Made by a program: the position numbers and the translations under genes | Notes under the pieces: generated by a model | Seen by the model: the letters and a program-made list of their open reading frames with translations, nothing else | Databases searched by the model: none | Told to the model about the DNA's origin: nothing | Shown: one piece after another, positions 2,587 to 31,310 of the stretch | How the letters are laid out: every line of letters starts with the position of its first letter | Numbering within the stretch: position 1 is the stretch's first letter | IMG/VR virus record: IMGVR_UViG_3300025087_000941 | Location: 1 to 64,000 of that record | Source: a virus | Direction: 5' to 3' (one strand) | Length of the DNA: 64,000 nucleotides

Positions 2587-3630
2587 ATGGACAAGACAGA
2601 TCGACAACTACATAAACGAGCTTACAAAATATACTGTTCGTTGAAGTCCAACTTGGACTCTGATTATGAAAGGGCCTTAGACGAGAAACTAGAAAAAGAT
2701 ATCTGGAGATTTCGACGTTTGGAGCACACGGTCAAATTGCTTTATACGTCATTGGATCGTAGCGAAAACTTGTCTAGAATAAGGTCTAAGTTAGTGACTA
2801 AGCTTTACGCTTTCGACTTTTCAGACGAGCCAAAAGCAAAAATTCAAATCGAGGGGCGAAGGACGTGGATCTCCAACTTCGTAGGAAGTATAAAGCATCT
2901 TCTAGCCAACGGAGCAACTTGCAAAAGGGACGTGATAGAGATGCGTATTGAAGACGTCGAGCTGGATGGCATTATTCTCGGAGACTATGCCGTTAGTGTT
3001 GACTTACGCGATGTCGCATCCGATGGCGTAGCTAGCGACATTAACTGTGTATCCATAGAAATGCTAAATACGGAGAACATGAGTAATAATGGAAATCCAC
3101 ATCCGCATATTTCTCCTGACGGACACATCTGTTGGGGAAACACTAAGCCAGCTATTCGGGCATCACTGCTTGTTGGAGATTTAGTCGGTATATTTGACAA
3201 TGTGGAGTCTTTCCTGCGCACATACAACGACTCATCTCCTTATTACCCCTTAAGTCAGTGGAACGGGCGTTGTTGTGAGCAATGTGGGTCAGAGACAGAG
3301 AACGTTTGCGAAAGTTGCGACAATGCTGACTGCTGCGGTACCTGTTGCTCCTTGTGCGGCAGTTATCGATGCCAAAGTTGTGCAGAGGATTATAACTACT
3401 GCGATTGTTGCCGCACGTCTCTTTGCTCTCAGTGCCTATCTCGTCTAGATAGTCGTTGTTTCGACTGCGGCGGTTGCGGCTGTGCTAAACAATGCTTGGA
3501 ATGTGGAATTGCTACGTGTAATAATTGCGATAGCGGATGGGAAGACGATTGGTGCCTAGAATGCCTAGAAAAACAACGTGCGGAAGAAGATGCGGAAGCC
3601 GAAGAAAGCGAGGCCGAGATTGAAGCCTGA
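2587..3630 (+). CDS. E2-like ubiquitin-conjugating (UBC fold) protein with C-terminal cysteine-rich domain
   Basis: The 347-residue protein has an N-terminal helical region, then an E2-like core containing HPHISPDGHICWG at 172-184. This matches the E2 active-site signature HPN(I)...G.ICL, making Cys182 the likely thioester cysteine. A following segment (LLVGDLVGIFDNVESFL) resembles the helix after the E2 active site. From about residue 239 to 330 there are 27 cysteines, mostly as CxxC or CC pairs, suggesting several bound zinc ions in a treble-clef or RING-like arrangement, and then an acidic tail. An E2 fused to a zinc domain could combine E2 and E3 roles, which is inference. The stop lies inside the start region of the JAMM gene. 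RBS ggagag precedes ATG. Confidence 0.75.
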   Translation: MDKTDRQLHKRAYKIYCSLKSNLDSDYERALDEKLEKDIWRFRRLEHTVKLLYTSLDRSENLSRIRSKLVTKLYAFDFSDEPKAKIQIEGRRTWISNFVGSIKHLLANGATCKRDVIEMRIEDVELDGIILGDYAVSVDLRDVASDGVASDINCVSIEMLNTENMSNNGNPHPHISPDGHICWGNTKPAIRASLLVGDLVGIFDNVESFLRTYNDSSPYYPLSQWNGRCCEQCGSETENVCESCDNADCCGTCCSLCGSYRCQSCAEDYNYCDCCRTSLCSQCLSRLDSRCFDCGGCGCAKQCLECGIATCNNCDSGWEDDWCLECLEKQRAEEDAEAEESEAEIEA

Positions 3631-4327
3631 ACTGCTGTTCACCCCTTATGCGTGGAAGAAACTAGTTTATCTTCGAGATCTGTCCGATAACGAAGTGGGT
3701 GCATTAGGGGTCTCTGTCCCCGGAAAACCCCTGGTCATAGCAGATCTGCTAGTTCCAAAGCAACTCGTGTCGTGGGTATCAGTTGCGTTCGACATGGATA
3801 ATGTGTCGGACTTGTATGCGGACATGTCGGAGAAAAATCGTCCGATGGAGGAGTTTGCGAGGGTGTGGATTCACACGCACCCAGGTAGCTCGGCTACCCC
3901 ATCTGGAACTGACGAGAATACGTTTATGACCAACTACGGAACCTGTAATTGGTCAGTTATGTTCATTCTTGCGAAATCGGGCGCCACGACAGCCTGCCTT
4001 CGATTGAAAACACCACAAAAACTCGACATCCAACTTGGAGTTGGTATCGACTGGACAGTTCCGTTTGATGCTACAGATGAAGTTGAATGGAAGAGCCATT
4101 ACGCACAATCGATATCTGTTTATGTGCCACCAGTCATTGTAAAGCCGACTACTTGTGTCACTAAATCAGCTAACGTGAGAGATGCTTACGAAGACGCGGG
4201 CATTTTTACGGCGGAGGATTTGTGGGAAGATGGTAGTGCCGATTGGTGGGCCAATCCAGAAGACATGTCATACGAAGATGTCGAAGACGAACTCTTTCAG
4301 CAAGAGCTTAAGGATGGCAAGGCATGA
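3578..4327 (+). CDS. JAB/MPN (JAMM) isopeptidase, deubiquitinase-like
   Basis: All JAMM metal-site residues are present: Glu39 in NEVGALG and the signature HTHPGSSATPSGTD at 99-112 (H99, H101, S109, D112). This is the zinc-dependent peptidase fold of Rpn11-type deubiquitinases and bacterial Ubl-processing enzymes. The likely role is maturing the Ubl tail or removing Ubl from targets. The C-terminal third (about 190-249) is acidic and lacks a recognised domain. GTG at 3578 gives the longest form; ATG at 3590 is an alternative, and either overlaps the end of the E2-like gene. The stop overlaps the E1-like start by ATGA. Confidence 0.88.
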   Translation: MRKKMRKPKKARPRLKPELLFTPYAWKKLVYLRDLSDNEVGALGVSVPGKPLVIADLLVPKQLVSWVSVAFDMDNVSDLYADMSEKNRPMEEFARVWIHTHPGSSATPSGTDENTFMTNYGTCNWSVMFILAKSGATTACLRLKTPQKLDIQLGVGIDWTVPFDATDEVEWKSHYAQSISVYVPPVIVKPTTCVTKSANVRDAYEDAGIFTAEDLWEDGSADWWANPEDMSYEDVEDELFQQELKDGKA

Positions 4328-4962
4328 ACCGGTACTCCCGATACGAGGGAATTCTATCGCCAGAGAAGTTACGCGCGCAAGAAGTTACTGTAGTAGGAGT
4401 TGGGGCTATAGGGCGACAGGTTGCTTTGCAACTTGCTACGGTGGGAGTTGGCAAACTCGATCTGTGGGATTTTGATACTGTCGGAGAAGAAAATCTAGGA
4501 ACCCAAGGATATCGACCAGATCAAGTTGGGAAAAGCAAGGTTGATGTCACTAAAGAAGACCTACTTCTTATCAATCCTGAGCTGGTTGTAGAGATACACA
4601 ACCAAAAAATCGGGATGGGGTCAACGACAGCCGATGTTGTAGCTATGTGTGTAGACTCTATTGACGTAAGGAAGAGATTCTTCCTTCGAAACGGAGAGTT
4701 GCTGAAGCTGCTTGTCGATGGTAGAATGAGCGCTGAAACGATTCGAGTTTTAACAAGCAAACACGGAGACGGTAACTACAAAGACAGTTTCTTCGAGCCA
4801 GGGGAAGCTTTTGCCGGTAGTTGCACGACGAAGAGCACGTTCTATTCGGCGTCAATAGCTGCCGGACTAATGGTAGCTGAGATCGCCAAGTGGTTACGAG
4901 GTTACGAAACAACCGCTGACATGACCGTAGATTTACTGTCGAGTGATCTCGCAGTGTCGTGA
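4324..4962 (+). CDS. E1-like (ThiF/MoeB family) adenylating enzyme
   Basis: This 212-residue single-domain E1 has the nucleotide loop GVGAIG at 25-30, acidic residues in LDLWDFD (45-51), then NLGTQGY with the RPDQVGKSK segment typical of ThiF/MoeB/E1 adenylation domains. The usual Arg after NL is replaced, as also occurs in prokaryotic E1-JAB systems. Cys in GSCTTKS near the C-terminus is a candidate for thioester transfer, not proven. The expected reaction is ATP-dependent adenylation of the Ubl C-terminus and transfer to the E2-like protein. It is coupled to the JAMM gene by ATGA. Confidence 0.88.
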   Translation: MNRYSRYEGILSPEKLRAQEVTVVGVGAIGRQVALQLATVGVGKLDLWDFDTVGEENLGTQGYRPDQVGKSKVDVTKEDLLLINPELVVEIHNQKIGMGSTTADVVAMCVDSIDVRKRFFLRNGELLKLLVDGRMSAETIRVLTSKHGDGNYKDSFFEPGEAFAGSCTTKSTFYSASIAAGLMVAEIAKWLRGYETTADMTVDLLSSDLAVS

Positions 4963-5220: not shown

Positions 5221-5451
5221 ATGTTGCGCTCGTCGTATCATACCTTTTTATGTGCGGACTCGTTTTGTAATAACACGCCAGTTTCTATGTGTGCAAGCGG
5301 GTGGAATTGCGGTGTGGGGCGGACAATAAGCATCGACGACATATGGCAAACGGGAGTTTTTCGTCGATCCGAGTCGCGTAAAAGTGTTTATGTTAATCAA
5401 ACATCTGTTATTGACGAAATAAGGTCATCTACTTGTCATCCGAGATGCTGA
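5221..5451 (+). CDS. Small Ser/Cys-rich protein (SxC family), 76 aa
   Basis: The protein contains PVSMCASGWNCG in its N-terminal half and ends SSTCHPRC, giving two Ser-x-Cys elements. GVGRTISID resembles the Arg-Val/Ile-Gly segments of other members. The stop overlaps the next gene's ATG by one base (TGATG). No known domain was recognised. Confidence 0.55.
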   Translation: MLRSSYHTFLCADSFCNNTPVSMCASGWNCGVGRTISIDDIWQTGVFRRSESRKSVYVNQTSVIDEIRSSTCHPRC

Positions 5452-5615
5452 TGTCATCATACAACATATGCAGGTCATCCGACTCGGTCTGTGCCGGCAG
5501 GACCATTTCTTTTTGTAGCGGTGTTGCGCAATATAGTCGGAGGAAAGAAATCGAGGATCTCGAAAGAGCTGTTTGGTACTTGATCAGAGAAATTGGCCGC
5601 CTGAGAAGGATTTGA
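5451..5615 (+). CDS. Small SxC-family protein with helical C-terminus, 54 aa
   Basis: It starts in a TGATG junction with the preceding small gene. The first half has DSVCAG and ISFCSG; the second half changes to a charged helix (IEDLERAVWYLIREIG) with coding-like composition. It may be a fusion of a Ser/Cys segment with a helical peptide. Function unknown. Confidence 0.45.
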   Translation: MSSYNICRSSDSVCAGRTISFCSGVAQYSRRKEIEDLERAVWYLIREIGRLRRI

Positions 5616-5618
5616 AAG

Positions 5619-5855
5619 GTGGTGCTTATATCGTCATGCCAACTGATTGTATCCGATACATCTTGTTGTTCGTACAGGCCTATGTCAGAAATATTAACCG
5701 TAAAAGTTAGAGGTCGTTTTACGGCTTGCGTATCCACAGATCGAATATTACAAAGTTTTCCTGCTCGATACTGTCGTAAAAGTGTCGTGACTCATATGCG
5801 ATCTACGTGTAGCGGGAAAACAGGTTCAACAACGAATTACGCTTGGTGGAGGTAA
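5619..5855 (+). CDS. Small Ser/Cys-rich protein (SxC family), 78 aa
   Basis: GTG start (two in a row). It has ISSCQ and DTSCCSY near the N-terminus and MRSTCSGKTG near the C-terminus. It ends two bases before the ATG of the RNA ligase, so the ligase ribosome binding site (ggagg) lies inside its last codons. No recognised family. Confidence 0.45.
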   Translation: MVLISSCQLIVSDTSCCSYRPMSEILTVKVRGRFTACVSTDRILQSFPARYCRKSVVTHMRSTCSGKTGSTTNYAWWR

Positions 5856-7913: not shown

Positions 7914-8200
7914 ATAAATACGTCGCTTTAAGTTCTGTTGTTACAAACGCATTGTTCTGTCTTAAGCTAAACGTCGGAGGAGCTGTCGTAAATTCGTTGG
8001 ATTCGAGTTTGTCATCGTGCAGCGCAGCTCCTCGTTTAATGTCGGCACTAGGAATCCCGTATATAAAAAGATACACACGACATTTTACATCTAGAGTTCT
8101 TTCTTGCGGATCCAAATGCGAGAGGACGTTCAAATTTAGTCGCGTAGGAAAGTTATCTAGTGTCAGAAGCCGATGCGAACATTACAGCAATGTCTTGTAG
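7910..8200 (+). CDS. Small Ser/Cys-rich protein (SxC family), 96 aa
   Basis: It starts in a GTGA overlap with the RuvC-like gene. Cys residues occur in LSSCSAA, LSCGSKC and RSRCEH. It contains FSRVGKLSS, coded by a 15-base stretch identical to one in the small gene at 17593 (YSRVGKS). An internal ATG at 8039 could give a shorter 53-residue form closer to the size of other members. The end overlaps the next gene. Confidence 0.5.
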   Translation: MNKYVALSSVVTNALFCLKLNVGGAVVNSLDSSLSSCSAAPRLMSALGIPYIKRYTRHFTSRVLSCGSKCERTFKFSRVGKLSSVRSRCEHYSNVL

Positions 8201-8762
8201 CACCATAAGTTTTATGTGCGAGACTAGCGGGATCCGCGTACGTGGGCTTCCCCCAAACTTAGCTGCCCTAGTGTGCGCACGGGTCTCTATCGCACACGTA
8301 GAAAACGCAACTATTCTGTTGTCAGGCATCGGCACCTTGGGTGCAGCTAGAGACATCTATTTGTACTTATCGAAGAGACAGGACTTACAGATAGTGTTGT
8401 CTGATGATTTACGCGTAGCCGAGGCCGTAAAACACGCCGATGATTTTGTAAAGGGAGAATTGTCCGAGGCGGATTTTCTGCCGTGGGTAAAAATATTGAT
8501 TCGAGCGATGAAATTTCGCTGGATAGATATCGATACAAAGTTTCAGATAGGTAAAGTTCTCGCGAGACTGCACGCGCAGCAAGAACGCGGGCTTGGACTA
8601 GGGGGATATAGAATTCTTATGACAGCTAGATATAATGCCATGATCGACGGACTGAGAGCAAAAGATGAGCAGATCGTAAGATTGTTACGCGAAATTACGA
8701 GTTTGGAGGCCCGTTTAATCAAACAGGCGCAACTTAGAAACGTTGTTGTTCCTAATTGTTGA
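8160..8762 (+). CDS. Hypothetical protein with C-terminal coiled coil, 200 aa
   Basis: I do not recognise this protein. The first 25 residues are Ser/Cys-rich (SCSTISFMC), then the composition becomes normal. Residues about 165-192 (AKDEQIVRLLREITSLEARL) form a likely coiled coil. GTG at 8160 has an AGGAAAG eight bases upstream but overlaps the previous gene by 41 bases; ATG at 8190 is the alternative. Confidence 0.6.
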   Translation: MSEADANITAMSCSTISFMCETSGIRVRGLPPNLAALVCARVSIAHVENATILLSGIGTLGAARDIYLYLSKRQDLQIVLSDDLRVAEAVKHADDFVKGELSEADFLPWVKILIRAMKFRWIDIDTKFQIGKVLARLHAQQERGLGLGGYRILMTARYNAMIDGLRAKDEQIVRLLREITSLEARLIKQAQLRNVVVPNC

Positions 8763-8777: not shown

Positions 8778-9011
8778 GTGAAAGATCTGTTTAAGGTTAT
8801 GAGGGTGCTGGGGCATTATCACATAGCGGGGAATATCTACTACAATTTGTGCTCGGGGGTCGGAGACTTTCCTTTTACTAATTATACTTCTCGGATAGGA
8901 TCCACGACTAGAAAAACGCAATGCGGAAGCGTTGTCAAATCGAGTAAGACACCAGGAGTTTTTAGTTCGTCATGCGCGAATTACCGCGAATTTTTGCTGT
9001 TAGGCATGTAA
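8778..9011 (+). CDS. Small SxC-family protein, tandem paralog 1, 77 aa
   Basis: This is the first of four tandem paralogs. The N-terminal FKVMRVLGHYHIAGNIYYNL matches SVKAVGWYSVSGVIYDRL in the gene at 9284. The C-terminal FSSSCANYREFLLLGM matches FRSSCSSERHDIIRLGCY in the gene at 9035. YTSRIGS matches the SRVGK element of other members. GTG start. No known function. Confidence 0.6.
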   Translation: MKDLFKVMRVLGHYHIAGNIYYNLCSGVGDFPFTNYTSRIGSTTRKTQCGSVVKSSKTPGVFSSSCANYREFLLLGM

Positions 9012-9034
9012 GCGAGTAGCGATTCAAAATTCTT

Positions 9035-9265
9035 ATGAAAATAGTTCAGTCGAGCGCCAGATTACTTGGATACCACGCGCGGTCAGGCCCCCTAAATACT
9101 TATTTGCATTCCAGAATTAACGTGCATTGTTTCATGTCGCGGTCGAACACCAAAAGATATTGTTTCTGCGCCGGTAGCATAGATGATATAAAAATGAAGC
9201 ATCGTTTTCGGTCGTCTTGTTCATCGGAAAGACACGATATTATACGTTTGGGATGCTATTGCTAA
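9035..9265 (+). CDS. Small SxC-family protein, tandem paralog 2, 76 aa
   Basis: The C-terminal HRFRSSCSSERHDIIRLGCY aligns with NRFKSSSKSEVHDILYLGCY of the next gene, while many aligned codons differ only at the third base (for example gat/gac, att/atc, tat/tac, ttt/ttc). That is what selection on a protein produces. The N-terminus (ARLLGYHARSG) matches its neighbours. Five cysteines lie in the last 40 residues. Confidence 0.65.
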   Translation: MKIVQSSARLLGYHARSGPLNTYLHSRINVHCFMSRSNTKRYCFCAGSIDDIKMKHRFRSSCSSERHDIIRLGCYC

Positions 9266-9283
9266 TCGTCGATTTGAGGCTCT

Positions 9284-9502
9284 ATGCGGTTGCCGCATTT
9301 ATCTGTTAAAGCCGTCGGATGGTATTCAGTGAGCGGCGTAATCTACGACCGACTCGTTTCTGTGATGGGGGTACAGAAGAAGAGCCTGAGTTCGATTCAA
9401 CCAAGTTACTCTGGTACCAGAAGCGGCGACAACTTACAAAATCGATTCAAGTCTTCCAGCAAGTCCGAAGTCCACGACATCCTCTATCTAGGATGCTACT
9501 AG
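9284..9502 (+). CDS. Small SxC-family protein, tandem paralog 3, 72 aa
   Basis: Closely related to the preceding gene at both ends. The Ser-x-Cys position is here Ser (KSSSKSE) but the final LGCY is kept. It ends directly against the ATG of the next paralog. ATG start. Function unknown. Confidence 0.65.
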   Translation: MRLPHLSVKAVGWYSVSGVIYDRLVSVMGVQKKSLSSIQPSYSGTRSGDNLQNRFKSSSKSEVHDILYLGCY

Positions 9503-9736
9503 ATGCTCGCCATTAAAGCTAGGTCGGTTATAAGTCATCACACAATGCCAGAGGTTCTATTTTCTAAGCTGCATTCCAATTGCGGGGCGAAAAATTATAG
9601 TGTGGCCAGGTCTCGACAAACGTGGTGTGGTTGGGCCAGTACAATTAGGAGCCACAGCGGTAAACGTCATTTTGTGTCGTGTGCGCACGATATTACAATC
9701 GAGTGGGCAAACGCCCTACCATTCCGGATCTGGTAG
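9503..9736 (+). CDS. Small SxC-family protein, tandem paralog 4, 77 aa
   Basis: It starts immediately after the stop of paralog 3. IKARSVISHHTMPEVLFSKL resembles the N-termini of its neighbours and of the members at 20536 and 21789 (VRTAIN, SRAIIN). RHFVSCAHDI corresponds to the FxSSCxxxxHDI element. Two other frames are also open across this stretch, so the frame choice depends on these matches. Confidence 0.5.
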   Translation: MLAIKARSVISHHTMPEVLFSKLHSNCGAKNYSVARSRQTWCGWASTIRSHSGKRHFVSCAHDITIEWANALPFRIW

Positions 9737-9830
9737 CGATAGGCCATTTGTTGGAAGCTATATCGTCACCAACTCGCGAATGTTTTACATCTCGCACATC
9801 GGAAAACTCAGCTCCTGGGTCATGCTTTGA
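9600..9830 (+). CDS. Alternative small open frame overlapping paralog 4
   Basis: This frame ends FYISHIGKLSSWVML, whose SHIGKLSS resembles SRVGKLSS of the member at 7910, and its stop overlaps the TTG start of the helicase (TTGA), the junction style used elsewhere here. It overlaps paralog 4 for 137 bases in another frame. Only the part after 9737 may be real, or the two frames may be joined by frameshifting; neither is shown. Confidence 0.3.
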   Translation: MWPGLDKRGVVGPVQLGATAVNVILCRVRTILQSSGQTPYHSGSGSDRPFVGSYIVTNSRMFYISHIGKLSSWVML

Positions 9831-11173
9831 ATACTCCGCTCGAAACACCGATGCTGTGGAATCACCAACAACGCGCTATAGATGTTGGGGTGAAGAATGG
9901 GTTTGTTGGAATATTTCACAGTCCTGGGGCTGGTAAGGGCCGCACATCGTTTGAATTACTAAAGAAGTGGGATTCTCCGTTTCCGTGTCTGGTCCTGTCG
10001 GTTAAAGAACAGCTGCACGTCTGGGCAGAAGAAGCCGCGAAATGGATACCAGGATTAAACGTTATAGATGTTGGAGGCAAATCCCAAAAGATTCGCATAG
10101 ATGGCGTTAAATTGGCCAGCGGGCTGTGCGTGATGAATTACGAATCATTCCGCGGTATTCGGGCAGAATGCCGGAATCGAAAATTCAAGACCGTAATCTT
10201 GGACGAGGCTTGGAAAGTGTCCTCTCCCAACGCCAAAATAACCCAAGCAGTGCTTCTATATTTGCATAGCGCGGAACACAGAGTCATCTTAAGTCCGTGG
10301 CCAGCTAGACGGAAATTGGACGATGTTTACGCTTTGATCAAGTTTCTGGACGGGGGGGAGAGACTCGGACATACGTTCAGCGCATTTCGAAATCGTTTTA
10401 TGTACCCGCATCCAGCTGGATTTGGTTGGTTGCCGAGGCATAATGCCGAAGAGGAAGTTGGTAAACTAATAGGCGACATCTGTAGTGTGGTTAGAGACGA
10501 AGACGTTAGGCCAAGTCTTGGTGTGCCGGCGGCTGTGTACGAGTCTGTGTTTGTTGATATGGACGATGCTCAGAAGATTTCCTACGCCGAGGCGATCAAA
10601 AATTGGTCCTTAGACGGCTACGAACTCGGCGGAGGCGGCGAACGCTATCTTCGACTTTGTCAGCTGACCGCGGGGCAAAAATTTGACGTATTTTCGAAGA
10701 ACAATAAAACGTCTTATTTGGTGGACTGGTTAAAACGTCTTGACGAACGCGAACGCGTTGTCGTTTTTACGTGGTTCCGGCCCGAAACCGAGGGCGTAGC
10801 CGAAACTCTTGCAAGAGAAACATCTCGGTCTGTGGTTATGGCCTATGGCGGGATGAAAGACAACATGGAGACTACGCTAGCTAAGTGGGCTAAGATTCCT
10901 GGGTCTGTATTGGTATGCCAGGGTAGTAAATCTGCCGGTTGGCATGCGACGGAGTCGCGATACTGCATATTTCACTCGCAGCCACAGACAGCTCTACAGA
11001 AATACCAGGCTGTTCGCAGGCTGGAAAGGCCGCCTCAAACTAGATCGGTGTTAGTAATCGACTTGTTAATGCGAAATACACTAGAGCCAAGGGTAAGAGA
11101 CGCGCTGATTCAGCAACGAGATTTTATGGATGCGTTGAGAGACTACGTCGGGTCTCTTCGAGAAACATCTTGA
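9827..11173 (+). CDS. SNF2/DEAD-like superfamily 2 helicase
   Basis: The 448-residue protein has two RecA-like lobes. Motif Q-like WNHQQRAID (11-19) is followed by motif I SPGAGKGRTS, motif II ILDEAWK, a motif III-like LSPWPA, and in lobe 2 VVVFTWF and QAVRRLERPPQ (motif VI, QxxRRxxR). The pattern fits phage SNF2-like helicases used in replication or recombination. Motif II reads DEAW rather than DEAH and motif III lacks the usual TGTP, so activity may be altered. TTG start overlaps a small frame; the stop overlaps the next small gene by TTGA. Confidence 0.85.
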   Translation: MNTPLETPMLWNHQQRAIDVGVKNGFVGIFHSPGAGKGRTSFELLKKWDSPFPCLVLSVKEQLHVWAEEAAKWIPGLNVIDVGGKSQKIRIDGVKLASGLCVMNYESFRGIRAECRNRKFKTVILDEAWKVSSPNAKITQAVLLYLHSAEHRVILSPWPARRKLDDVYALIKFLDGGERLGHTFSAFRNRFMYPHPAGFGWLPRHNAEEEVGKLIGDICSVVRDEDVRPSLGVPAAVYESVFVDMDDAQKISYAEAIKNWSLDGYELGGGGERYLRLCQLTAGQKFDVFSKNNKTSYLVDWLKRLDERERVVVFTWFRPETEGVAETLARETSRSVVMAYGGMKDNMETTLAKWAKIPGSVLVCQGSKSAGWHATESRYCIFHSQPQTALQKYQAVRRLERPPQTRSVLVIDLLMRNTLEPRVRDALIQQRDFMDALRDYVGSLRETS

Positions 11174-11418
11174 TTAAGCATTATAGATTTGACAGTTACG
11201 GAACAAAGAGCTGGTGTGGTTCCGTGCGCGACAGTAAAATGGACAACTTCGCTCGGGTCTCAACGCTATATACGGACGTTTTTGGGCCTATAAGCAAGAT
11301 AAACAATCGAAGAATAAGTCTTATCGACAGGTCCGGTTGGACTGGGTCTCGCTGTAATAGTTGCGATTCTTACGGCGACAGAACATCCTTTTTGGGAAGT
11401 CTGTGTATCAGCGTTTGA
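11170..11418 (+). CDS. Small Ser/Cys-rich protein (SxC family), 82 aa
   Basis: First of six small genes between the helicase and the Cas4-like nuclease. The TTG start overlaps the helicase stop. It has SWCGSV, SRCNSCDSYG (a CxxC pair) and ends LGSLCISV. YRFDSYG near the start resembles RFDIYG in the member at 38131. Confidence 0.6.
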   Translation: MIKHYRFDSYGTKSWCGSVRDSKMDNFARVSTLYTDVFGPISKINNRRISLIDRSGWTGSRCNSCDSYGDRTSFLGSLCISV

Positions 11419-11461
11419 TATATCCGGTTTCCTGAGTGATTAACAAGTCGAGCAATTATCC

Positions 11462-11659
11462 GTGATAAAAGCTAGTTACCCACTTCTTAACTTTTACGGG
11501 TGCCAACTAAGTCTTTCTTCTGGTTATTCTTCGAGCCGGAGTAACCACAAAAGCGTAGGTAAGCATATAGCATCTTTTGTCGTTGGTTATACCCAGGTCC
11601 GCTGGTGGACTAGCCGAACAAGCGGGGCTCAGATTAGCAAGATTAGATGCTACAGTTGA
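11462..11659 (+). CDS. Small Ser/Cys-rich protein (SxC family), 65 aa
   Basis: GTG start, 43 bases after the previous gene. PLLNFYGCQLSLSSG resembles PIIRFDIYGCVLADS of the member at 38131, and it ends SKIRCYS. Very Ser-rich. Its stop overlaps the next start (TTGA). Confidence 0.55.
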   Translation: MIKASYPLLNFYGCQLSLSSGYSSSRSNHKSVGKHIASFVVGYTQVRWWTSRTSGAQISKIRCYS

Positions 11660-11850
11660 ACTATTCGATAATCAGATTCGAAGGAGTAGATCTTAGCAGA
11701 TGTTCGTGCCTAAGTTTTCCGATTCTCGCTAGCAAGATAAACTATAGGGAGAAAAGCTATCCGTGTGTATCGTATAATAGCTCGTGCAATGACAAATATT
11801 TCTCTGGTCGGTCGAGCGGCCGACGATACAGCAGAAATATCCGCATATGA
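11656..11850 (+). CDS. Small Ser/Cys-rich protein (SxC family), 64 aa
   Basis: The TTG start is chosen because it overlaps the previous stop by TTGA; an ATG nine bases upstream is also in frame. SIIRFEGVDLSRCSC near the N-terminus resembles the RFD-type start of other members; YNSSCND lies later. The stop overlaps the next gene by ATGA. Confidence 0.55.
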   Translation: MNYSIIRFEGVDLSRCSCLSFPILASKINYREKSYPCVSYNSSCNDKYFSGRSSGRRYSRNIRI

Positions 11851-12095
11851 GAGTTGTTGCCAGAAATTGCTCGATGCGTTATTCTAACTACCAAAGTTCT
11901 ACAAACAGCGCTATTGTCAGCAAATTTTTTAGTAGTAGTTACACTAGGTCCAGAAGATGGCCTTACCCCGCCGGATCGATTATGGGATCTTGTAAGCCAT
12001 CTAGGATATCAGCCGGCATTATCGTTACCCACGATAACCGACACATGACCAGTAGATGCAACAATAGAGTCAACAGCAGTTGTAAGAAAGTATGA
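11847..12095 (+). CDS. Small Ser/Cys-rich protein (SxC family), 82 aa
   Basis: Coupled on both sides by ATGA. Cys in RNCSMRYS, MGSCKPSR and near the end NSSCKKV. It is very rich in Ser, Arg and Asn. No known family. Confidence 0.6.
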   Translation: MRVVARNCSMRYSNYQSSTNSAIVSKFFSSSYTRSRRWPYPAGSIMGSCKPSRISAGIIVTHDNRHMTSRCNNRVNSSCKKV

Positions 12096-12307
12096 AAACG
12101 TCTCTCACGATTCTGCTTAGTTCCTTGTCGATATACGACGTTTTCCAGCTGCGTATGTGTTCGTCAAAACGCGGGGTGCTTTTTACATCGAAAATCGGTT
12201 TTGGTGATCGTAGAAATAGTCTAGTTTGGTCGAATGCGCAGAACTTTTCCTTATTCTATCTCAAGGCTCAGATAGGATATCCCCCATCGCTACTCCCCCA
12301 CGAATAA
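12092..12307 (+). CDS. Small hypothetical protein in the SxC array, 71 aa
   Basis: Coupled to the preceding gene by ATGA and to the next by TAATG. It has only one cysteine (RMCSSKRG) and a more hydrophobic start (LTILLSSLSIY), so it is a divergent member or an unrelated passenger of the array. Confidence 0.5.
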   Translation: MKTSLTILLSSLSIYDVFQLRMCSSKRGVLFTSKIGFGDRRNSLVWSNAQNFSLFYLKAQIGYPPSLLPHE

Positions 12308-12540
12308 TGTTACTTAGTAGAAACCATATCGTCTGGCGGGATGTCTGCGCTACTTCATTCCTTTCATCACTTGATTCTCGTTGTTACCGAAGAAGTTGGT
12401 GCGGTAGTTTGTACCGAGCGAGAACGGGGTCACTTACAAACGGGCGATATTCTAAGCGAGCAGAATCGGTATCCTTGTATATTGGTTCCAGTATTACGGG
12501 TCACGTTACAAGTAATTGTAATAGGAGTTACGGCAAATGA
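12307..12540 (+). CDS. Small Ser/Cys-rich protein (SxC family), 77 aa
   Basis: It starts in a TAATG junction and ends in an ATGA junction with the nuclease gene. It has WRDVCAT, SWCGSLYR and near the C-terminus TSNCNRSYGK. Arg/Ser-rich. The start is set by the junction, since longer in-frame starts would overlap the previous gene deeply. Confidence 0.55.
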   Translation: MLLSRNHIVWRDVCATSFLSSLDSRCYRRSWCGSLYRARTGSLTNGRYSKRAESVSLYIGSSITGHVTSNCNRSYGK

Positions 12541-15933: not shown

Positions 15934-16170
15934 ATGCGAATAGGACATCTTAGTTTACTTTACAAAATGGACACAATTTCGTCCCGCGCTAAGTCGAGAA
16001 CTGTGTCTGTGTTAACTGGTCGACATTCGTGGGGCTCATTTGGTCTAATCAGTCGTTTCTATGCGTCAAGTTGTTCTACTGAAGTACAGAAACTCGATAT
16101 CGGTTCTGTATGTGGAACAAAAGATTTTTCTAGACTTGGGTTTAGCCGATGTTTCAAACTTTCGAATTAG
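15934..16170 (+). CDS. Small Ser/Cys-rich protein (SxC family), 78 aa
   Basis: ATG start. It has YASSCSTE, IGSVCGTKDFSRLGF and SRCFK near the C-terminus. GTKDFSRLGF recalls the HDIxxLG tail of the tandem paralogs at 8778-9502. No known domain. Confidence 0.55.
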   Translation: MRIGHLSLLYKMDTISSRAKSRTVSVLTGRHSWGSFGLISRFYASSCSTEVQKLDIGSVCGTKDFSRLGFSRCFKLSN

Positions 16171-16211
16171 TCGTCGATTTGTGTTTATTGGTAGGAATCG
16201 AAAGAACGTAG

Positions 16212-16445
16212 ATGATCAAACTAACTAATAATATCCGCTTGTCGGGGTCGTTAGTGGGGTCAAAGTCGTTTCCGGAGTGTGCGGTATCGTGGTCGGAATC
16301 GATGTCGATGTTGTCGTCAGAGTCATTATCAGAGTCGTTGTCAGTATCGGAACCAGCGTCGTTTGCGGGGTCGATGTCGGTAACCGGGTCGGGGCCAGAG
16401 CCGACGCTGAATTCGTTGTCGGGGTCGATAACCCACGATTTGTGA
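16212..16445 (+). CDS. Possible Ser-rich repeat protein, 77 aa
   Basis: ATG start; the middle is built of Ser-Glu-Ser type repeats (SSESLSESLSVSE) from a simple DNA repeat. The opposite strand is also open and would encode an Asp-rich protein with a hydrophobic tail. Because all neighbours are on the plus strand this direction is preferred, but a coding role is uncertain. Confidence 0.3.
   Translation: MIKLTNNIRLSGSLVGSKSFPECAVSWSESMSMLSSESLSESLSVSEPASFAGSMSVTGSGPEPTLNSLSGSITHDL
16256..16425. repeat. Degenerate hexamer-like (tcg/gtc) simple repeat
   Basis: Runs of tcggaatcg, tcgatgtcg, tcagagtcg and tcgttgtcag give a 6-9-base periodic pattern. Two plus frames and one minus frame stay open through it because of the repeat itself. 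It reads as Ser/Glu repeats on the plus strand and Asp/Asn/Ser repeats on the minus strand. Confidence 0.6.
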
Positions 16446-16470
16446 TTACACACCCAACAAGAGAGGTCCG

Positions 16471-16807: not shown

Positions 16808-17404
16808 ATGATCGATCATAAAGCGCCTACGGGATTTATCGGCAATGTAAAAGATCGACTAGACATGTTTCTAGGCTGGCAAACTCCCCCAGAATTACTG
16901 GAGCCCGTTAGAAACTACTTCGGCGGACGAATTCCGTTTGACGTATGCACGACTCCGGATAATCCAACAGACGCTGAAGATTTTTGGACGCCCGACGATA
17001 ACGCCCTTGGACTTGTATGGCCGGATAGATGTTTCGAGAACCCGCCCTACGGTAAGGCAATGAAAAACTGGGTTCAGAAAGCTGTTTTAGAGAGCCAACA
17101 AGACAACAAAGAAATTATACTGTTGCTATCGGCTGCTCGTTGGGAGCAAGGATGGTGGCAAGAATTTATCGCTGTTGCTGATCTTGTGTGCTTCATACGT
17201 GGTCGTGTTAGCTTTATTCGTCCTATTACTGGAGATCGGGTGAGTGGCAATACATACGCCAACATGTTTGTTGGGTTGAAAATTCGAGACCATCGACTAT
17301 TTACAGACTGTTTCAAGAATGTTGGTTTGTGCATGCGGTGGGAATCGTTGAATACTCCGCCTACCGTAACGGCTTATCAACAATATAGGAATCGACAATC
17401 GTGA
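16808..17404 (+). CDS. Phage DNA N6-adenine methyltransferase (Dam family, PF05869 type)
   Basis: The protein (198 residues) has WQTPPELLEPV near the N-terminus, DVCTTPDNP, and the catalytic motif ENPPYG at about 79-84, followed by ILLLSAARWEQGWW. These are hallmarks of the phage-type Dam methyltransferases, which methylate adenine in DNA to evade host restriction. The motif order is that of a small single-domain enzyme. Its stop overlaps the next small gene by GTGA. Confidence 0.85.
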   Translation: MIDHKAPTGFIGNVKDRLDMFLGWQTPPELLEPVRNYFGGRIPFDVCTTPDNPTDAEDFWTPDDNALGLVWPDRCFENPPYGKAMKNWVQKAVLESQQDNKEIILLLSAARWEQGWWQEFIAVADLVCFIRGRVSFIRPITGDRVSGNTYANMFVGLKIRDHRLFTDCFKNVGLCMRWESLNTPPTVTAYQQYRNRQS

Positions 17405-17589
17405 TAACGGCCCAAAAATCCGCCGCTTTGTTTCGACCTCGCCCGGATACGTTGGGTGGCTGGGATACGAGCGTGTGCTCTCAGGTATTTGCGAGCGTGT
17501 CTGTTATCAAAAAGCAAATAAAAAGAATTGCTAGTCGCGTGGCACATAAAAGGCTTTCCGTGTGTAACAAATTGAGTCACAGCATATAA
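17401..17589 (+). CDS. Small SxC-family protein, 62 aa
   Basis: GTG start overlapping the methyltransferase stop (GTGA). It has DTSVCSQV in the middle and RLSVCNK near the C-terminus, two Ser-Val-Cys elements. Lys/Arg-rich in the second half. Confidence 0.6.
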   Translation: MITAQKSAALFRPRPDTLGGWDTSVCSQVFASVSVIKKQIKRIASRVAHKRLSVCNKLSHSI

Positions 17590-17592: not shown

Positions 17593-17829
17593 ATGAACCA
17601 GTTTAGTCGATTTAAAGCCGGTTACTATCGTTCTATGGGTTCGCATACAAAGGCTAAAAGCGTATTAGCGGGTGGTAAACACGGATGTAGCACGTATAGT
17701 CGCGTAGGAAAAAGCCATATTGATCGATCTAGCGTTAGATTTGGGTTTATTTCTGGCGACTCGTCGTGCGATAGTTGTTCTCGTCACAGTTATCATAGTG
17801 TCTGCCGAATAGGAAATATGGTTTCATAG
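17593..17829 (+). CDS. Small Ser/Cys-rich protein (SxC family), 78 aa
   Basis: ATG three bases after the previous stop. It contains YSRVGKS (15 bases identical to the gene at 7910), GDSSCDSCSRHSYHSVCRIG with a CxxC pair, and ends just before tRNA-Thr. FKAGYYRSMGS at the N-terminus resembles the G(Y/H)Y start of the 8778 group. Confidence 0.6.
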   Translation: MNQFSRFKAGYYRSMGSHTKAKSVLAGGKHGCSTYSRVGKSHIDRSSVRFGFISGDSSCDSCSRHSYHSVCRIGNMVS

Positions 17830-18594: not shown

Positions 18595-19241
18595 AAATTA
18601 ATTCTGGAGGCCAACTTAGTAAGACGCTGGAAAATGGTGTTATTACGATTTCTGGGCCAAGTCGTTATCTAAATAGGCTAATCGCTACATACGATTGGAG
18701 TATCCGATTAAACCTACGTGTGGTTCCACTCACGAGGTTAGTAGGCGATAGGGTAGAACGTACGTATGTTGATGGGACAGATGGGTGTTCGATTCAAGAT
18801 GCCACAAGCAGCGATGGCGCAAAGATCGCTATTTTGGACTACCTACTCGGCGGTTACTGCGATCGTTCATTGCACCATAACGTAATTAAAACACCATCTG
18901 GCTTATTATTCTCAATAGATAATGAGCATGCGTTTAGAACGCTAGATGACTATGGTGCGGACTGGGAGAGAGGTGGGATATCGGGATTTCTGTCCTTGTG
19001 GTGTAGCCTTTGGCAGTTAGATAATTCTGAATCGTTGCACAACGCGATGTGTTCTATCGTTGCTAGTGTAGTAGACGCGTTGTCTAGTTCTATGTGCGCT
19101 CTTGACGTACTAACGGGACAAGAACAAGAGGATGCGTTTATACGATCGGGCTTCTTGATACGAACGAGAAGTGTTGCGCATGCCTGGATATTGTGGCGCA
19201 GATATGCCTACGACAAGGTTTTGCGCGGGATAACACTTTGA
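18582..19241 (+). CDS. Kinase-like protein (PI3/4-kinase or FAM20/HipA-like fold)
   Basis: The 219-residue protein contains LDYLLGGYCDRSLHHN followed by LLFSIDNEHAF. This matches the catalytic loop and metal-binding motif (DxxxGNxDRHxxN ... IDNxxAF) of atypical kinases such as bacterial PI3/4-kinase-like proteins. The usual Asn of GNxDR is Gly here. The substrate is unknown; it is paired with a methyltransferase. ATG overlaps the previous gene by 13 bases; a TTG 27 bases upstream is an alternative. The stop overlaps the next small gene by TTGA. Confidence 0.6.
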   Translation: MPPLKINSGGQLSKTLENGVITISGPSRYLNRLIATYDWSIRLNLRVVPLTRLVGDRVERTYVDGTDGCSIQDATSSDGAKIAILDYLLGGYCDRSLHHNVIKTPSGLLFSIDNEHAFRTLDDYGADWERGGISGFLSLWCSLWQLDNSESLHNAMCSIVASVVDALSSSMCALDVLTGQEQEDAFIRSGFLIRTRSVAHAWILWRRYAYDKVLRGITL

Positions 19242-19444
19242 AACTTCGTCGTATTGTGCGGCCCGAGTCGGCCTACGATTCGAGATGTGCCAGCTACCGT
19301 TACTCTTTAATCCACGGATTGGCGGGATCAATGGGGGCTAAAAGAATAAATAGACCATTTTATACTCCGTGGAGCGACGTATTTAAGCATATCTACGCAG
19401 ATAGTCCTATATCAACATGTAAAAGCAAATACTCTGAAATCTAG
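19238..19444 (+). CDS. Small Ser/Cys-family protein, 68 aa
   Basis: The TTG start overlaps the kinase-like stop. DSRCASYRY near the N-terminus and SPISTCKSKYSEI at the end give the two Ser-x-Cys elements. A longer in-frame ATG at 19193 would overlap the kinase gene. Confidence 0.55.
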   Translation: MKLRRIVRPESAYDSRCASYRYSLIHGLAGSMGAKRINRPFYTPWSDVFKHIYADSPISTCKSKYSEI

Positions 19445-20338: not shown

Positions 20339-20518
20339 ATGAAACACGCAGTTAAGATCCAAACCAAAATTGGGTTACACGTTTCTCGCCACAGCGAGTT
20401 TGTTTACCGGACATCTAGAATTCGCGGAATCTGGATTAATTCGTCTTTGTCGTTTTGTAACGATCTCTCATCTAGTAAGAGTAGCACAAGATGGGGACTT
20501 CGAAAGTCTATCTGCTAG
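20339..20518 (+). CDS. Small Ser/Cys-family protein, 59 aa
   Basis: ATG seven bases after the ligase stop. It has LSFCNDLSSSKSS and ends exactly KSIC before TAG. Another frame (20370-20594) is open over the same DNA but lacks the motif. No recognised function. Confidence 0.5.
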   Translation: MKHAVKIQTKIGLHVSRHSEFVYRTSRIRGIWINSSLSFCNDLSSSKSSTRWGLRKSIC

Positions 20519-20535
20519 GGGAAAGATAACCAGCG

Positions 20536-20760
20536 GTGAATTACCAACTCAAAGTTCGAACAGCAATAAATTATCACCTTCTGCCAGCGGATGATACTCG
20601 ACTAATGGCATCAAGATCGGGCATGACTTATGCATACGTAGGGCTATGCAGAAGTGTGACGTGGCACAGTTATGGCAACGCATCGAGCGCAGTATCTGCT
20701 ATCGAGAATTGCAACAGATTTTACAAATCTTTGTGCTGCGAGGACGACTGTAAGTTGTGA
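20536..20760 (+). CDS. Small Ser/Cys-family protein, 74 aa
   Basis: GTG start. LKVRTAINYHLL resembles TKSRAIINDQLH of the member at 21789. VGLCRSVTWHSYGNASS and FYKSLCCEDDCKL carry the cysteines. The stop overlaps the next start by GTGA. Confidence 0.55.
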   Translation: MNYQLKVRTAINYHLLPADDTRLMASRSGMTYAYVGLCRSVTWHSYGNASSAVSAIENCNRFYKSLCCEDDCKL

Positions 20761-20996
20761 ACACAACACACGAAGGTAAACCTGCGGTAACGCTTGGCAA
20801 TTTGAGCGACGCAAAAAGTCGTTTTGTCGCTTCCGCATCCTCGGCTAAGTCTGCACGATACTTTTCTCAGTGCGGGTCTGTGCTGGTATACGGTTCTCTG
20901 ACTTTAAAAGCCAACTATGTTCGTGGTAGGCACTTGAAGCGGGGATTAGGCTATAATAACTCGACGTGTTCGATAAAGGATTTCCTATACGTATGA
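20757..20996 (+). CDS. Small Ser/Cys-family protein, 79 aa
   Basis: Coupled on both sides (GTGA, ATGA). FSQCGSVLVYGS in the middle and the ending NNSTCSIKDFLYV, which resembles SSSCANYREFLLLGM of the member at 8778. Rich in Ser and Ala. Confidence 0.6.
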   Translation: MNTTHEGKPAVTLGNLSDAKSRFVASASSAKSARYFSQCGSVLVYGSLTLKANYVRGRHLKRGLGYNNSTCSIKDFLYV

Positions 20997-21196
20997 ATCA
21001 CCCGCTTAAGGTAATCGGCCTTATTTGCTGTGATGGCATCCCATCGAATATAGCCGACCCTGTTCGCGGCTACCCGCGGACATTGTCACGAGTGGGGGTG
21101 GAAAAAACTTTAACGGCGTGTGCAACACGATGTCGTTTTCTGCGCAGTTTAGCAGGTATAATAAGCGTAACAATATTTCAACGAGCGTTTGTGTGA
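20993..21196 (+). CDS. Small Cys-containing hypothetical protein, 67 aa
   Basis: ATGA-coupled to the previous small gene. It has GLICCDGIPSN and TACATRCRFL. It lacks a clear Ser-x-Cys tail and is more hydrophobic, so it is a distant member or an unrelated passenger. Confidence 0.45.
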   Translation: MNHPLKVIGLICCDGIPSNIADPVRGYPRTLSRVGVEKTLTACATRCRFLRSLAGIISVTIFQRAFV

Positions 21197-21618: not shown

Positions 21619-21792
21619 ATGGAATCTTCTTGTGGGCTTGTTTTTACTGGCAACTCCTGTTCGTGGGATATCGAGTTAGTCGCCACAAACGAGAATCTGG
21701 TGAACACTGTCCGCAATCCGTGTCGTGGTCAAAATACATTCTCGAAAGACTGTGACCCGCAAATAGATTATGACATCCCGGATTACGCGTGA
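21619..21792 (+). CDS. Small Cys-containing protein in the SxC array, 57 aa
   Basis: ATG start; ESSCGLVFTGNSCSWD and NPCRGQ give the cysteines; the C-terminal part is acidic (DPQIDYDIPDYA). The stop overlaps the next start by GTGA, which supports translation. Confidence 0.45.
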   Translation: MESSCGLVFTGNSCSWDIELVATNENLVNTVRNPCRGQNTFSKDCDPQIDYDIPDYA

Positions 21793-22040
21793 ATAATATT
21801 ACCAAAAGTCGAGCCATCATTAACGATCAGTTACACGATAGGACAATCGCAGTATATCTAAATTCGACAATTGGCGGGAATGTAATATCCGCGTGCGGAT
21901 CTTTATCGCGTATAGTATTCCACTCACGACGGCGCGCATCAAGTAGATGCGCGTGCAAAGACGGTTCGTGGGAATGCTATAAATCGAGGAGCCTGGGTTA
22001 CTGCACCAGCGTTGCAAGGTCCGGCAGTCGCGCTTTCTGA
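21789..22040 (+). CDS. Small Ser/Cys-family protein, 83 aa
   Basis: GTGA-coupled to the preceding gene. ISACGSLSRIVFHS, SSRCACKDGSWECYKS and LGYCTSV carry six cysteines. The N-terminus resembles the member at 20536. It is the last small gene before the control region. Confidence 0.55.
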   Translation: MNNITKSRAIINDQLHDRTIAVYLNSTIGGNVISACGSLSRIVFHSRRRASSRCACKDGSWECYKSRSLGYCTSVARSGSRAF

Positions 22041-26433: not shown

Positions 26434-27145
26434 ATCAGTTCGACTACGGCCGTTTCTAAGTTTTTACGGCTCAAAATGGCGACTGGCAAAACATTACCCC
26501 GAACCAAGATTTGATACGATAATTGAACCATTTGCTGGCGGGGCCGGCTACTCTACTTGGCACCATACTAAGAATGTAATTTTGATTGAGAAAGATCCAA
26601 AGATAGCATCGGTTTGGGACTATCTTATCCACGTAACGTCAGACGAGATGCTGTCTCTACCGGATATAACAGACGGTAAAACTGTCGACGACTTAAGCAT
26701 TCCACAAGAAGCGAAGTATTTGATCGGCTGGTGGATCCAGGGGGCCGTCTCCTCGCCAAGAAAGTCTGCATCTTCGTGGATGAAAAACGCAGGGCCAAAT
26801 CCTACTAGATTCTGGGGAGAAATAGTTCGCCGTAGGTTGTCGGAACAAGTCGAACAAATTCGGCACTGGAAAATAGTGCTTGGCTCTTACGAAGATTATC
26901 CTGATATACCAGCTACATGGTTCATTGACCCGCCGTACCAGAAAATGGGCAAACACTATAGATACTGCAAGATAGACTACAATAAATTGGCTGAGTGGGC
27001 TATGTCCAGGTCGGGTCAAGTCGTTGTCTGTGAAAACTCGGGGGCTGACTGGCTTCCGTTTGTGCCGTTTAGAGACTCCTTATCCTCGCAGGCCAGAACC
27101 CCAGGACGAAAATATTCGAAGGAAGTTATTTTTGGTCGCGAGTAA
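26420..27145 (+). CDS. D12-class DNA N6-adenine methyltransferase
   Basis: The 241-residue enzyme begins with RPFLSFYGSKWRLAKHY, as in D12 methyltransferases. It has motif I EPFAGGAGYST and catalytic motif IV WFIDPPYQK, then a target-recognition region. This class methylates adenine, often in GATC-like sites. This ATG is preferred over a GTG 27 bases upstream that lies deeper in the previous gene. The stop overlaps the next ATG (TAATG). Confidence 0.88.
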   Translation: MQNSKSVRLRPFLSFYGSKWRLAKHYPEPRFDTIIEPFAGGAGYSTWHHTKNVILIEKDPKIASVWDYLIHVTSDEMLSLPDITDGKTVDDLSIPQEAKYLIGWWIQGAVSSPRKSASSWMKNAGPNPTRFWGEIVRRRLSEQVEQIRHWKIVLGSYEDYPDIPATWFIDPPYQKMGKHYRYCKIDYNKLAEWAMSRSGQVVVCENSGADWLPFVPFRDSLSSQARTPGRKYSKEVIFGRE

Positions 27146-27525
27146 TGAGAACTAGAATAATAAGACAAACCTGGATTATAGAAAATCATTTGTGCAGAAG
27201 ATGTGGCGGTCGAGTTCTTCGATGCGTAACCGGTAACGGCGTGACTCCTGGCGGAGATCCGATATTCAAGTGTGGAGATTGCGGCAACTCCACAAGTGGG
27301 TTTAGCGCAGATGTTATTTGTTGGTGTGGCTTTCATCACAGCGGGAACCACAACATAACAGCTTACAAGTGTGTTCCGTTTTTTGTGCTCGCCGAACGTC
27401 CAGAATTGCGAAACGCATTTCTTAGTTGTGGATGCGACCCGGCACAAGAAGAAGTAGGAATTATGCTGGAGAAGGATTTCTACAAAACCGATCTTGTGCC
27501 CGACGCAGAAATGCCGAAACTATGA
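27145..27525 (+). CDS. Zinc-ribbon hypothetical protein, 126 aa
   Basis: It contains CRRCGGRVLRC and KCGDCGNS, two CxxC knuckles that should form a zinc ribbon, plus ICWCGFHHSGNH and SCGCDP. It is TAATG-coupled to the methyltransferase and ATGA-coupled to the next gene. It may bind nucleic acid, but no specific family was recognised. Confidence 0.7.
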   Translation: MRTRIIRQTWIIENHLCRRCGGRVLRCVTGNGVTPGGDPIFKCGDCGNSTSGFSADVICWCGFHHSGNHNITAYKCVPFFVLAERPELRNAFLSCGCDPAQEEVGIMLEKDFYKTDLVPDAEMPKL

Positions 27526-27758
27526 GCGATTGGATCAGCGGAATTCCCAAAAAGAGCTGTGAATACTGGCTTTGGTGTCGTAGTCGACTCAAGCCTGCGC
27601 GTGGCTATGTCTTAATAGTAAACAAACAAGCCGAAGTTACAATTAGTTGCGGAATGGGAAGTGACACATTCTCATCCAATAAAAAGTTAAGTTGCGGTAA
27701 TGTTCCATGGCCATTTACCCACTACGCTGTTGTAAAGCCGCCTCCACTACCGAAATAG
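27522..27758 (+). CDS. Hypothetical protein, 78 aa
   Basis: ATGA overlap with the zinc-ribbon gene sets the start. KKSCEYWLWCRSR and the strand-rich middle (GYVLIVNKQAEVTISCG) suggest a small beta-rich protein. No known domain. Confidence 0.6.
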   Translation: MSDWISGIPKKSCEYWLWCRSRLKPARGYVLIVNKQAEVTISCGMGSDTFSSNKKLSCGNVPWPFTHYAVVKPPPLPK

Positions 27759-27761
27759 TAA

Positions 27762-28142
27762 ATGGTTAGATTCAAACAAAAGTCTCGAATTTGGGGACCT
27801 TTTCAAAACTGGTGGACCACTATAGGTTCTACGATCTATTATCCGCCCGATTCTGGTTACCCCGATCGAATATTTCACGATGACGTTCTTGCGACACTCT
27901 CGCACGAACTAGTACACGTTAGACAATGGAAGAAATACGGATGGCTGCTCCTGTTGCTTTACTTTCTGTTTCCATTACCTATCGGATTTGCATATTTTAG
28001 GTGGAAGTTTGAACGTGAAGCCTATCTAACCGAGATTAAACACGGTTGGAGCATAGACCTGTGCGTTGATGTTATTTGGGACGACTATTGGTGGCCGTGG
28101 CCGAAGTCGTGGATGAGAAACTGGTTTAGGAGGAATTCGTAA
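27762..28142 (+). CDS. Membrane-associated HExxH metallopeptidase-like protein
   Basis: The 126-residue protein has LSHELVHVRQWKKYG, the zincin HExxH motif. A hydrophobic helix (LLLLLYFLFPLPIGFAYF) follows directly, and then KFEREAYLTEI, where Glu may be the third zinc ligand, an arrangement seen in small membrane-associated peptidases. It is Trp-rich at both ends. It could act on a host membrane or envelope protein; this is inference. Confidence 0.65.
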   Translation: MVRFKQKSRIWGPFQNWWTTIGSTIYYPPDSGYPDRIFHDDVLATLSHELVHVRQWKKYGWLLLLLYFLFPLPIGFAYFRWKFEREAYLTEIKHGWSIDLCVDVIWDDYWWPWPKSWMRNWFRRNS

Positions 28143-28526
28143 ATGAATATTTTGCATGTTGGGGATACTGTCCGACTCACAGGAAATTGGCTCGTCGATA
28201 CATCTGCGTATGATGCAGAAGCTTTTGCAAAGCAGGTGGGAAAGTTAGGTGTCGTAAGGCATAATTACGAGTCTTGTTGCGACGTAGAATTTCCGGGCCA
28301 TGTAGGTTGGCTGACAATTCCGCGCGACAAACTAGATTTAGTAAGTAGCAAACAGCCTGATCAAATATGTGTTTTTGACGAAAGGAAATACGACTTTATT
28401 TCCAGGTGCAGGTACTGGGATGGTACAAATTCCGCATATGTACTGATGGCGGAAGCGGATATAGCATCCGCCCTTTACGACTACATCGTGGAATTATGCA
28501 CAAAGTCCGATCAAACAACAAAATGA
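28143..28526 (+). CDS. Hypothetical protein, 127 aa
   Basis: ATG directly after the preceding stop. VGDTVRLTGNW near the start looks like a small beta-barrel (KOW/SH3-like) strand pattern, and the C-terminal half is helical (AEADIASALYDYIVELC). No firm family. ATGA overlap with the next gene. Confidence 0.6.
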   Translation: MNILHVGDTVRLTGNWLVDTSAYDAEAFAKQVGKLGVVRHNYESCCDVEFPGHVGWLTIPRDKLDLVSSKQPDQICVFDERKYDFISRCRYWDGTNSAYVLMAEADIASALYDYIVELCTKSDQTTK

Positions 28527-29278
28527 AGTTGCGCATTCTTAGCGACTTACATAACGAGTTTAGTAAGTTTGCCCCGCCTAAGATCGAGACCGACGTTGTT
28601 GTGTTAGCTGGCGATCTGCATAATGGCGTGATGTCGGCCAAATTCATCCTCGACAACTTTAAAGACAAGCCAGTAGTGTTTGTTGCTGGGAATCACGAAT
28701 ACTATTCCAACGCCTGGCCAAAGTTGCGTGACAAACTCGCGAAAAAATTCGAAGGTACGAATGTCGCATTTCTCGACAGAGAGTCGATTGTCATAGACGG
28801 TGTTCGATTTCTTGGGGCGACGCTATGGACGGATTTTGCGTGTTATGGAGAAAGCGCTATCGAAGCAGCCAAAGAATACGCAGCCCCAAACGTCTCCGAC
28901 TTTAGTGTTATTCACAACAGCGACACCGGCAAGTTGATCACTCCCGAGGATACTAGGCTAGAGCATTGGTTGGATCGTAACTGGCTAAAAGAAAATCTCG
29001 AACAATCCTTTCCTGGGCCAACCATAGTTGTTACACACCATGCACCATCGTCAAAATCGTGTCATCCTCGTTTTATGGGTAGTCGGATAAATCCATGTTT
29101 TTACTCGAATATGGACTCTTTAGTTACGTTAGCAGATGTATGGGTGCATGGGCATGCGCACGACACGTACAATTACAAGATAGGAAATTGTCAAGTAATA
29201 TGCAACCCCAGAGGATATCCTGGCGAAGATGCTGGTTTTAGATGCGATCTTGTGTTTGATCTGAAAGGCGAAATGTAA
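28523..29278 (+). CDS. Calcineurin-like metallophosphoesterase
   Basis: The 251-residue protein has ordered metal motifs: ILSDLHNEF (DxH), VLAGDLHN (GD), FVAGNHEYY (GNHE), VTHHAP and VHGHAHD (GHxH). The fold hydrolyses phosphoesters in nucleotides, nucleic acids or proteins. The substrate cannot be told. It is ATGA-coupled to the preceding gene and placed in an operon with zinc-ribbon proteins. Confidence 0.9.
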   Translation: MKLRILSDLHNEFSKFAPPKIETDVVVLAGDLHNGVMSAKFILDNFKDKPVVFVAGNHEYYSNAWPKLRDKLAKKFEGTNVAFLDRESIVIDGVRFLGATLWTDFACYGESAIEAAKEYAAPNVSDFSVIHNSDTGKLITPEDTRLEHWLDRNWLKENLEQSFPGPTIVVTHHAPSSKSCHPRFMGSRINPCFYSNMDSLVTLADVWVHGHAHDTYNYKIGNCQVICNPRGYPGEDAGFRCDLVFDLKGEM

Positions 29279-29407: not shown

Positions 29408-29458
29408 TTCGGAGTCGATTTACTGTGACCAAATCTTCGAAGGGACGATAAACAAGTC

Positions 29459-29917: not shown

Positions 29918-29977
29918 AGTGCGACGCTCAAATAAGATTTGTTATGCAAACCCGTAACTGGTATCGGCCGGTCAATT

Positions 29978-30849: not shown

Positions 30850-30865
30850 CTTTTAATACACAGAG

Positions 30866-31308: not shown

Positions 31309-31310
31309 GT

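Follow-up and report, generated by a model that had tools for sequence, protein, structure and literature searches.

Four tandem paralogous tiny genes in a bacterial virus belong to a genome-wide set of short basic proteins with an S-x-C signature

The four genes studied here lie in tandem at positions 8778-9736 of the window, the 64,000-nucleotide stretch that was analysed, which sits within the 65,799-base virus record IMGVR_UViG_3300025087_000941 and comes from a bacterial virus known solely from DNA surveys. As originally predicted, all four are open in frame on the plus strand at these coordinates, and they encode proteins of 72-77 residues: gene A (8778-9011, 77 aa) has a GTG start with an alternative ATG at 8799, gene B (9035-9265) encodes 76 aa, gene C (9284-9502) 72 aa, and gene D (9503-9736) 77 aa, its ATG directly following the TAG of gene C. 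The cluster is flanked upstream by a gene for a 200-residue protein with no assigned function (8160-8762) and downstream by an SNF2-type helicase gene (9827-11173; PF00176, E 1.2e-18; phrog_62, E 8.8e-59). No large gene overlaps the four ORFs on either strand; the minus strand holds short ORFs only, none of which reaches the 65-residue threshold in this gap. Clear Shine-Dalgarno sequences are found at few of the tiny starts in the cluster. A further plus-strand frame of 76 aa (9600-9830) overlaps gene D, and its stop shares a TTGA with the earliest start of the helicase (9827). It is thus uncertain where the helicase truly begins and whether this frame is a gene.

Judged by their sequences, the homology of B and C is beyond doubt. 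They share 32% identity over 75 residues (BLASTP E 1.6e-7), their local alignment score is 88 against a mean of 23 for shuffled sequences (z about 14-16), and when the record was searched in all six frames with protein B, the matches were B itself and C (E 1.8e-6). By the alignment tests, the homology of A and D to the others is weaker and more diverged, yet significant. In global alignments compared with shuffled-codon controls, all six pairs gave p ≤ 0.0075 (≤ 0.005 for D), with A/B, A/D and B/C below 1/400, which bears out the proposal that the four are paralogs; local alignments of pairs involving A or D gave p values of 0.0025-0.013. D and B also match at the DNA level, with 22 nucleotides at 73% in the same register around LxxxLHS and an identical 10-mer, CACGATATTA, that codes for HDI in the same reading register. 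The C-terminal motif FxSSCxxxxHDIxxLGCY, which had been attributed to all four proteins, is truly common to B and C, but A keeps only FSSSC and D only SCAHDI.

The original prediction took synonymous change between B and C, at about nine of nineteen aligned C-terminal codons, as the best evidence that the tiny genes are real. The count is correct: the C-terminal block of 24 codons contains 4 identical, 9 synonymous and 11 non-synonymous codons, with differences at codon positions 1, 2 and 3 of 0.46, 0.21 and 0.71. The dN/dS ratio proposed as a check has no finite estimate because synonymous sites are saturated, with pS for B/C at 0.88 over the whole length and 1.09 in the C-terminal block. Moreover, protein-guided alignment itself inflates third-base relative to second-base differences, the codon-shuffled control for B/C having a mean excess of 0.16. 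Against this, the observed excess was 0.29 for B/C (p 0.052, borderline) and 0.37 for A/B (p 0.005), and no further pair among the four reached significance under this control. The argument points in the right direction, but the third-base excess is mostly an alignment effect and dS is saturated. Conservation at the protein level is nevertheless required, because the similarity in amino acids outlasts a near-random choice of codons. On these comparisons we take the four genes to be real, tandem, paralogous and conserved at the protein level. Better proofs of their reality than synonymous change are the tiling of intergenic gaps by plus-strand frames, the coupled starts, and an S-x-C signature that is found in frame only.

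The cluster is one of several. About 30 tiny plus-strand ORFs, mostly of 57-96 aa, occupy the spaces that separate replication genes along about 38 kb. The first two, at 2154-2351 and 2348-2566, are coupled and lie between the AAA ATPase gene and a gene at 2587, and both have ATGA starts. Three in tandem follow at 5221-5855 (5221-5451, 5442-5615 and one ending at 5855), the first two being alike (z 6.5). Downstream of the four-gene cluster, a chain of about six (11170-12540, with starts at 11170, 11462, 11647, 11847, 12092 and about 12310) runs into the exonuclease gene at 12537, with stop/start overlaps at 11170, 11847, 12092 and 12537. ORFs with S-x-C are found at 15934-16170, 17401-17589 and 17593-17829. 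A repetitive segment at 16154-16453 is open on both strands, serine-rich on the plus and Asp/Ser/Asn-rich on the minus. Further members are an ORF at 19193-19444, a chain at 20339-21196 (starts at 20339, 20536, 20757 and 20993) with GTGA and ATGA overlaps, and two ORFs at 21619-22040 with a GTGA link at 21789. The ORF at 30866-31201 is similar to that at 19193 (z 9.2); its extent is uncertain, and towards the 3' end it runs over a second frame (31027-31308) with the look of an ordinary gene. The last cluster, at 37629-38406, comprises three ORFs coupled by ATGA overlaps (37629, 37868 and 38131), the last two alike (z 6.6).

Plus-strand ORFs of at least 45 aa cover 6898 of the 8555 gap bases, compared with 3593 on the minus strand and a mean of 2775 (maximum 4289) in shuffled sequences. 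In the gaps or at their edges there are 17 four-base NTGA stop/start overlaps (ATGA, GTGA or TTGA), in a few of which one partner is a large gene or an alternative frame; the minus strand has none, and shuffles have a mean of 1.5 and a maximum of 6. The choice of tiny ORFs and the gap limits were set partly by eye. The tetranucleotide ATGA is itself rare across the window (402 occurrences against 587 in dinucleotide shuffles), yet recurs at gene junctions. Codon-usage scoring by frame was uninformative in this genome, which has little codon bias. Promoter-like sites numbered 4, compared with 6.7 in shuffles, which gives no promoter signal above chance.

The tiny proteins are rich in serine (16.3%) and cysteine (4.9%) and strongly basic, with K+R at 14.1%, D+E at 5.3% and a median net charge of +7. 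Simply counting serine- and cysteine-rich ORFs does not discriminate, as both residues also abound in the antisense frames of GC-rich genes, and we therefore used a test for S-x-C. This tripeptide occurs 59 times in frame in the tiny ORFs against 20.2 expected, compared with 2 and 10 times in the other plus frames, and shows no excess in the large genes (14 against 18.7 expected). When hand-picking was avoided by taking all plus-strand ORFs of 45-130 aa, 86 were found against 47.5. No excess like that of the window's plus strand was seen on the other strands of any phage locus examined, and T-x-C, C-x-C and A-x-C are not enriched in the tiny proteins. Because its serines use both TCN and AGY codons, S-x-C is a protein-level motif. 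It often takes the form aromatic-x(1,2)-S-x-C-[GSN]-S, with one element about half-way along the protein and another close to the C-terminus; S-x-C-[SGN]-S was counted 11 times against 1.0 expected and aromatic-x(1,2)-S-x-C 24 times against 4.1. In 19 of 34 proteins an S-x-C lies within 16 residues of the C-terminus, compared with 3.7 in composition-matched shuffles.

Among the tiny ORFs, clear similarity is seen in adjacent pairs (9035/9284, 5221/5442 and 37868/38131) and in a few distant ones (19193/30866 and 2154/38131), and a profile pooled from all tiny ORFs is weak, reaching p ≤ 0.05 in leave-one-out tests for 6 of 33. Several unrelated tiny families, each duplicated locally and alike across the genome through convergence on a serine- and cysteine-rich composition, would account for both observations. 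However, composition-matched shuffles produce fewer S-x-C motifs, and fewer near the C-terminus, and by simple count two S-x-C elements recur at a spacing of 47-48 residues in 7 of 46 pairs. We regard separate origins as less likely. Descent of all members from one ancestor is likely, on the basis of composition and a short motif, rather than proven, because the pooled profile is weak.

No homologue was found outside this virus. A DNA search of 50,697 phage genomes gave no match, and tblastn of protein B in phage genomes found nothing better than an E of 7. No credible match to the tiny proteins was found in Pfam, PHROGs, NCBIfam or the PDB sequences. Scans of IMG/VR with B alone, with an alignment of B and C and with the pattern ExHDIxxLGCY, and of GTDB genomes with B and C, which require short exact peptide matches, found no homologue; the alignment of all four proteins was too diverse for scanning. 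No close relative of the virus was found, and neither the loci around distant primase relatives (about 25% identity) nor those around relatives of the nicotinamide phosphoribosyltransferase (NAMPT) protein (67% or less, the same virus aside) showed an excess of S-x-C tiny ORFs like that of the window. A profile search of 30 of these records gave one weak partial match with an internal stop (E 0.013). AlphaFold models from two tiny-protein runs had pLDDT values of 44 and 51, with no confident fold. Within the sensitivity of each search, and in collections from which records close to the window's genome may be missing, the tiny proteins thus appear to constitute a family new to the databases searched.

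The large genes in the left part of the window encode an AAA ATPase, a ThiF-family protein, an RNA ligase, a RuvC-like resolvase, an exonuclease, a Sak4-like protein, a DNA ligase, a primase-helicase, a DNA polymerase and NAMPT. All tiny-ORF clusters lie within the left 38.5 kb, amid these replication and recombination genes and apart from structural genes. The sole other contig of the same virus, IMGVR_UViG_3300025117_000573 (IMG/VR; 52,658 bases), starts to the right of the four-gene cluster and is 100% identical to the window where compared, over 26659-43810 (17.2 kb) and at the window's right end (0.7 kb). From its length and orientation we computed that it reaches about 13.5 kb beyond the virus record, which is therefore a fragment. 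This extension holds long ORFs that probably represent structural (late) genes, and no tiny-ORF clusters comparable to those of the window. To the extent that the two contigs show it, the tiny genes are thus restricted to the replication region.

We propose, with a probability of about one half, that the four genes form one cluster within an expanded, phage-specific orphan family of about 30 tiny early proteins that probably act on host targets. Repeated tandem duplication would have expanded the family, whose members sit in gaps of a region that holds the replication genes and is probably early. The proteins would be made early and translated by coupling, as members of operons. Being small and basic, they may bind host proteins or nucleic acids, with the S-x-C elements as a shared structural or functional element, and shifts in host targets may have driven the duplicates apart, as in host-takeover modules of the SPO1 type. 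A more far-reaching version, which we put forward only tentatively, is that about a tenth of the known early region is given over to one fast-diversifying superfamily of tiny coupled proteins, with a novel S-x-C-based fold and mechanism, that serve as variable host-directed effectors.

In its anatomy the arrangement resembles small-gene host-takeover modules such as that of Bacillus phage SPO1, described as a cluster of 26 genes (PMC6873191), the host targets in our case being inferred. The source portrays many short, clustered phage genes with orphan sequences and a proposed action on the host (PMC6873191), and here, too, short genes are clustered in the same orientation and located away from the structural genes. 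Unlike the SPO1 module as described there, the set would comprise one or a few families that have given rise to about 30 paralogues with a common S-x-C, spread over about 38 kb and known from sequence alone.

Another reading accepts that the family is real and translated, and takes S-x-C as a site of modification or maturation, the proteins being precursors of RiPP-like peptides (for example lanthipeptides) or substrates of enzymes that the phage encodes. The proteins are indeed serine- and cysteine-rich, multi-copy and variable. Among the phage's genes is one for a protein kinase domain (42518-43255; PF00069, E 7.7e-16), and in the region 2587-4962, adjoining the first tiny-gene cluster, a ThiF-family protein (4324-4962; E 1.8e-28) lies beside a weak JAB-domain match (3578-4327), a pairing that suggests a phage-encoded ubiquitin-like system. 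The links of kinase and ThiF to the tiny proteins are, however, ones of proximity only. Prochlorosins, a multi-copy family of RiPP precursors, likewise comprise many tandem or dispersed short serine- and cysteine-rich paralogues in one genome. Unlike prochlorosins, the tiny proteins have no conserved leader, their alignments showing similarity at both ends, and they vary beyond a core. LanC-like, radical SAM and YcaO proteins are absent from both virus records, which may be incomplete, although control genomes gave matches, and S-x-C is shorter than the usual lanthionine ring. We consider this reading unlikely.

Small zinc-finger or zinc-ribbon proteins, which phages are known to have, are similarly short, basic and cysteine-containing. 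The tiny proteins differ from them in having no conserved set of metal ligands, a single cysteine in protein C and no Pfam or PHROG match, and zinc binding is not supported, since no cysteine or histidine is invariant among the four.

The marked basicity, the serine content and the number of copies might also suit small proteins with which phage DNA is coated or condensed, or minor components of the virion. The genes stand among replication genes, away from the structural genes on the overlapping contig, and their high diversity would be odd for a coat protein, which makes a structural or packaging role improbable. A non-coding region, in which structured RNA or spacer DNA happens to contain open frames, is in the main refuted: the amino-acid composition is partly near that of random ORFs and codon usage lacks a clear coding signal, but gap tiling, coupled starts and the in-frame-only motif argue against it, RNA folding shows no excess over shuffles on either strand (z between -1.6 and +2.9), and Rfam has no match here, its matches elsewhere in the window being tRNAs only.

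Very short phage genes are commonly set aside as doubtful predictions or as orphans with no relation to one another. In this virus, tests on sequence alone indicate that a whole set of them is real, chained and probably related, and their motif lends itself to mutation and to searching. Should the proteins of our proposed family act on the host, their targets could be mapped with a ready-made series of about 30 paralogues; otherwise they would be a clear case of massive expansion of a small viral protein.

Among the small genes of the region, one contains two direct 59-nucleotide copies that are 88% alike (31336-31454) and encode a repeated cysteine-rich segment, ASNNHxxExCCCVDCC. Close by, the NAMPT gene (32902-35307; phrog_448, E 7e-186) is interrupted at residues of about 304-614 by a segment that matches inserted regions of other phage families and is probably an intein. 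It adjoins a ribose-phosphate pyrophosphokinase gene (31854-32624), and together the two suggest NAD salvage.
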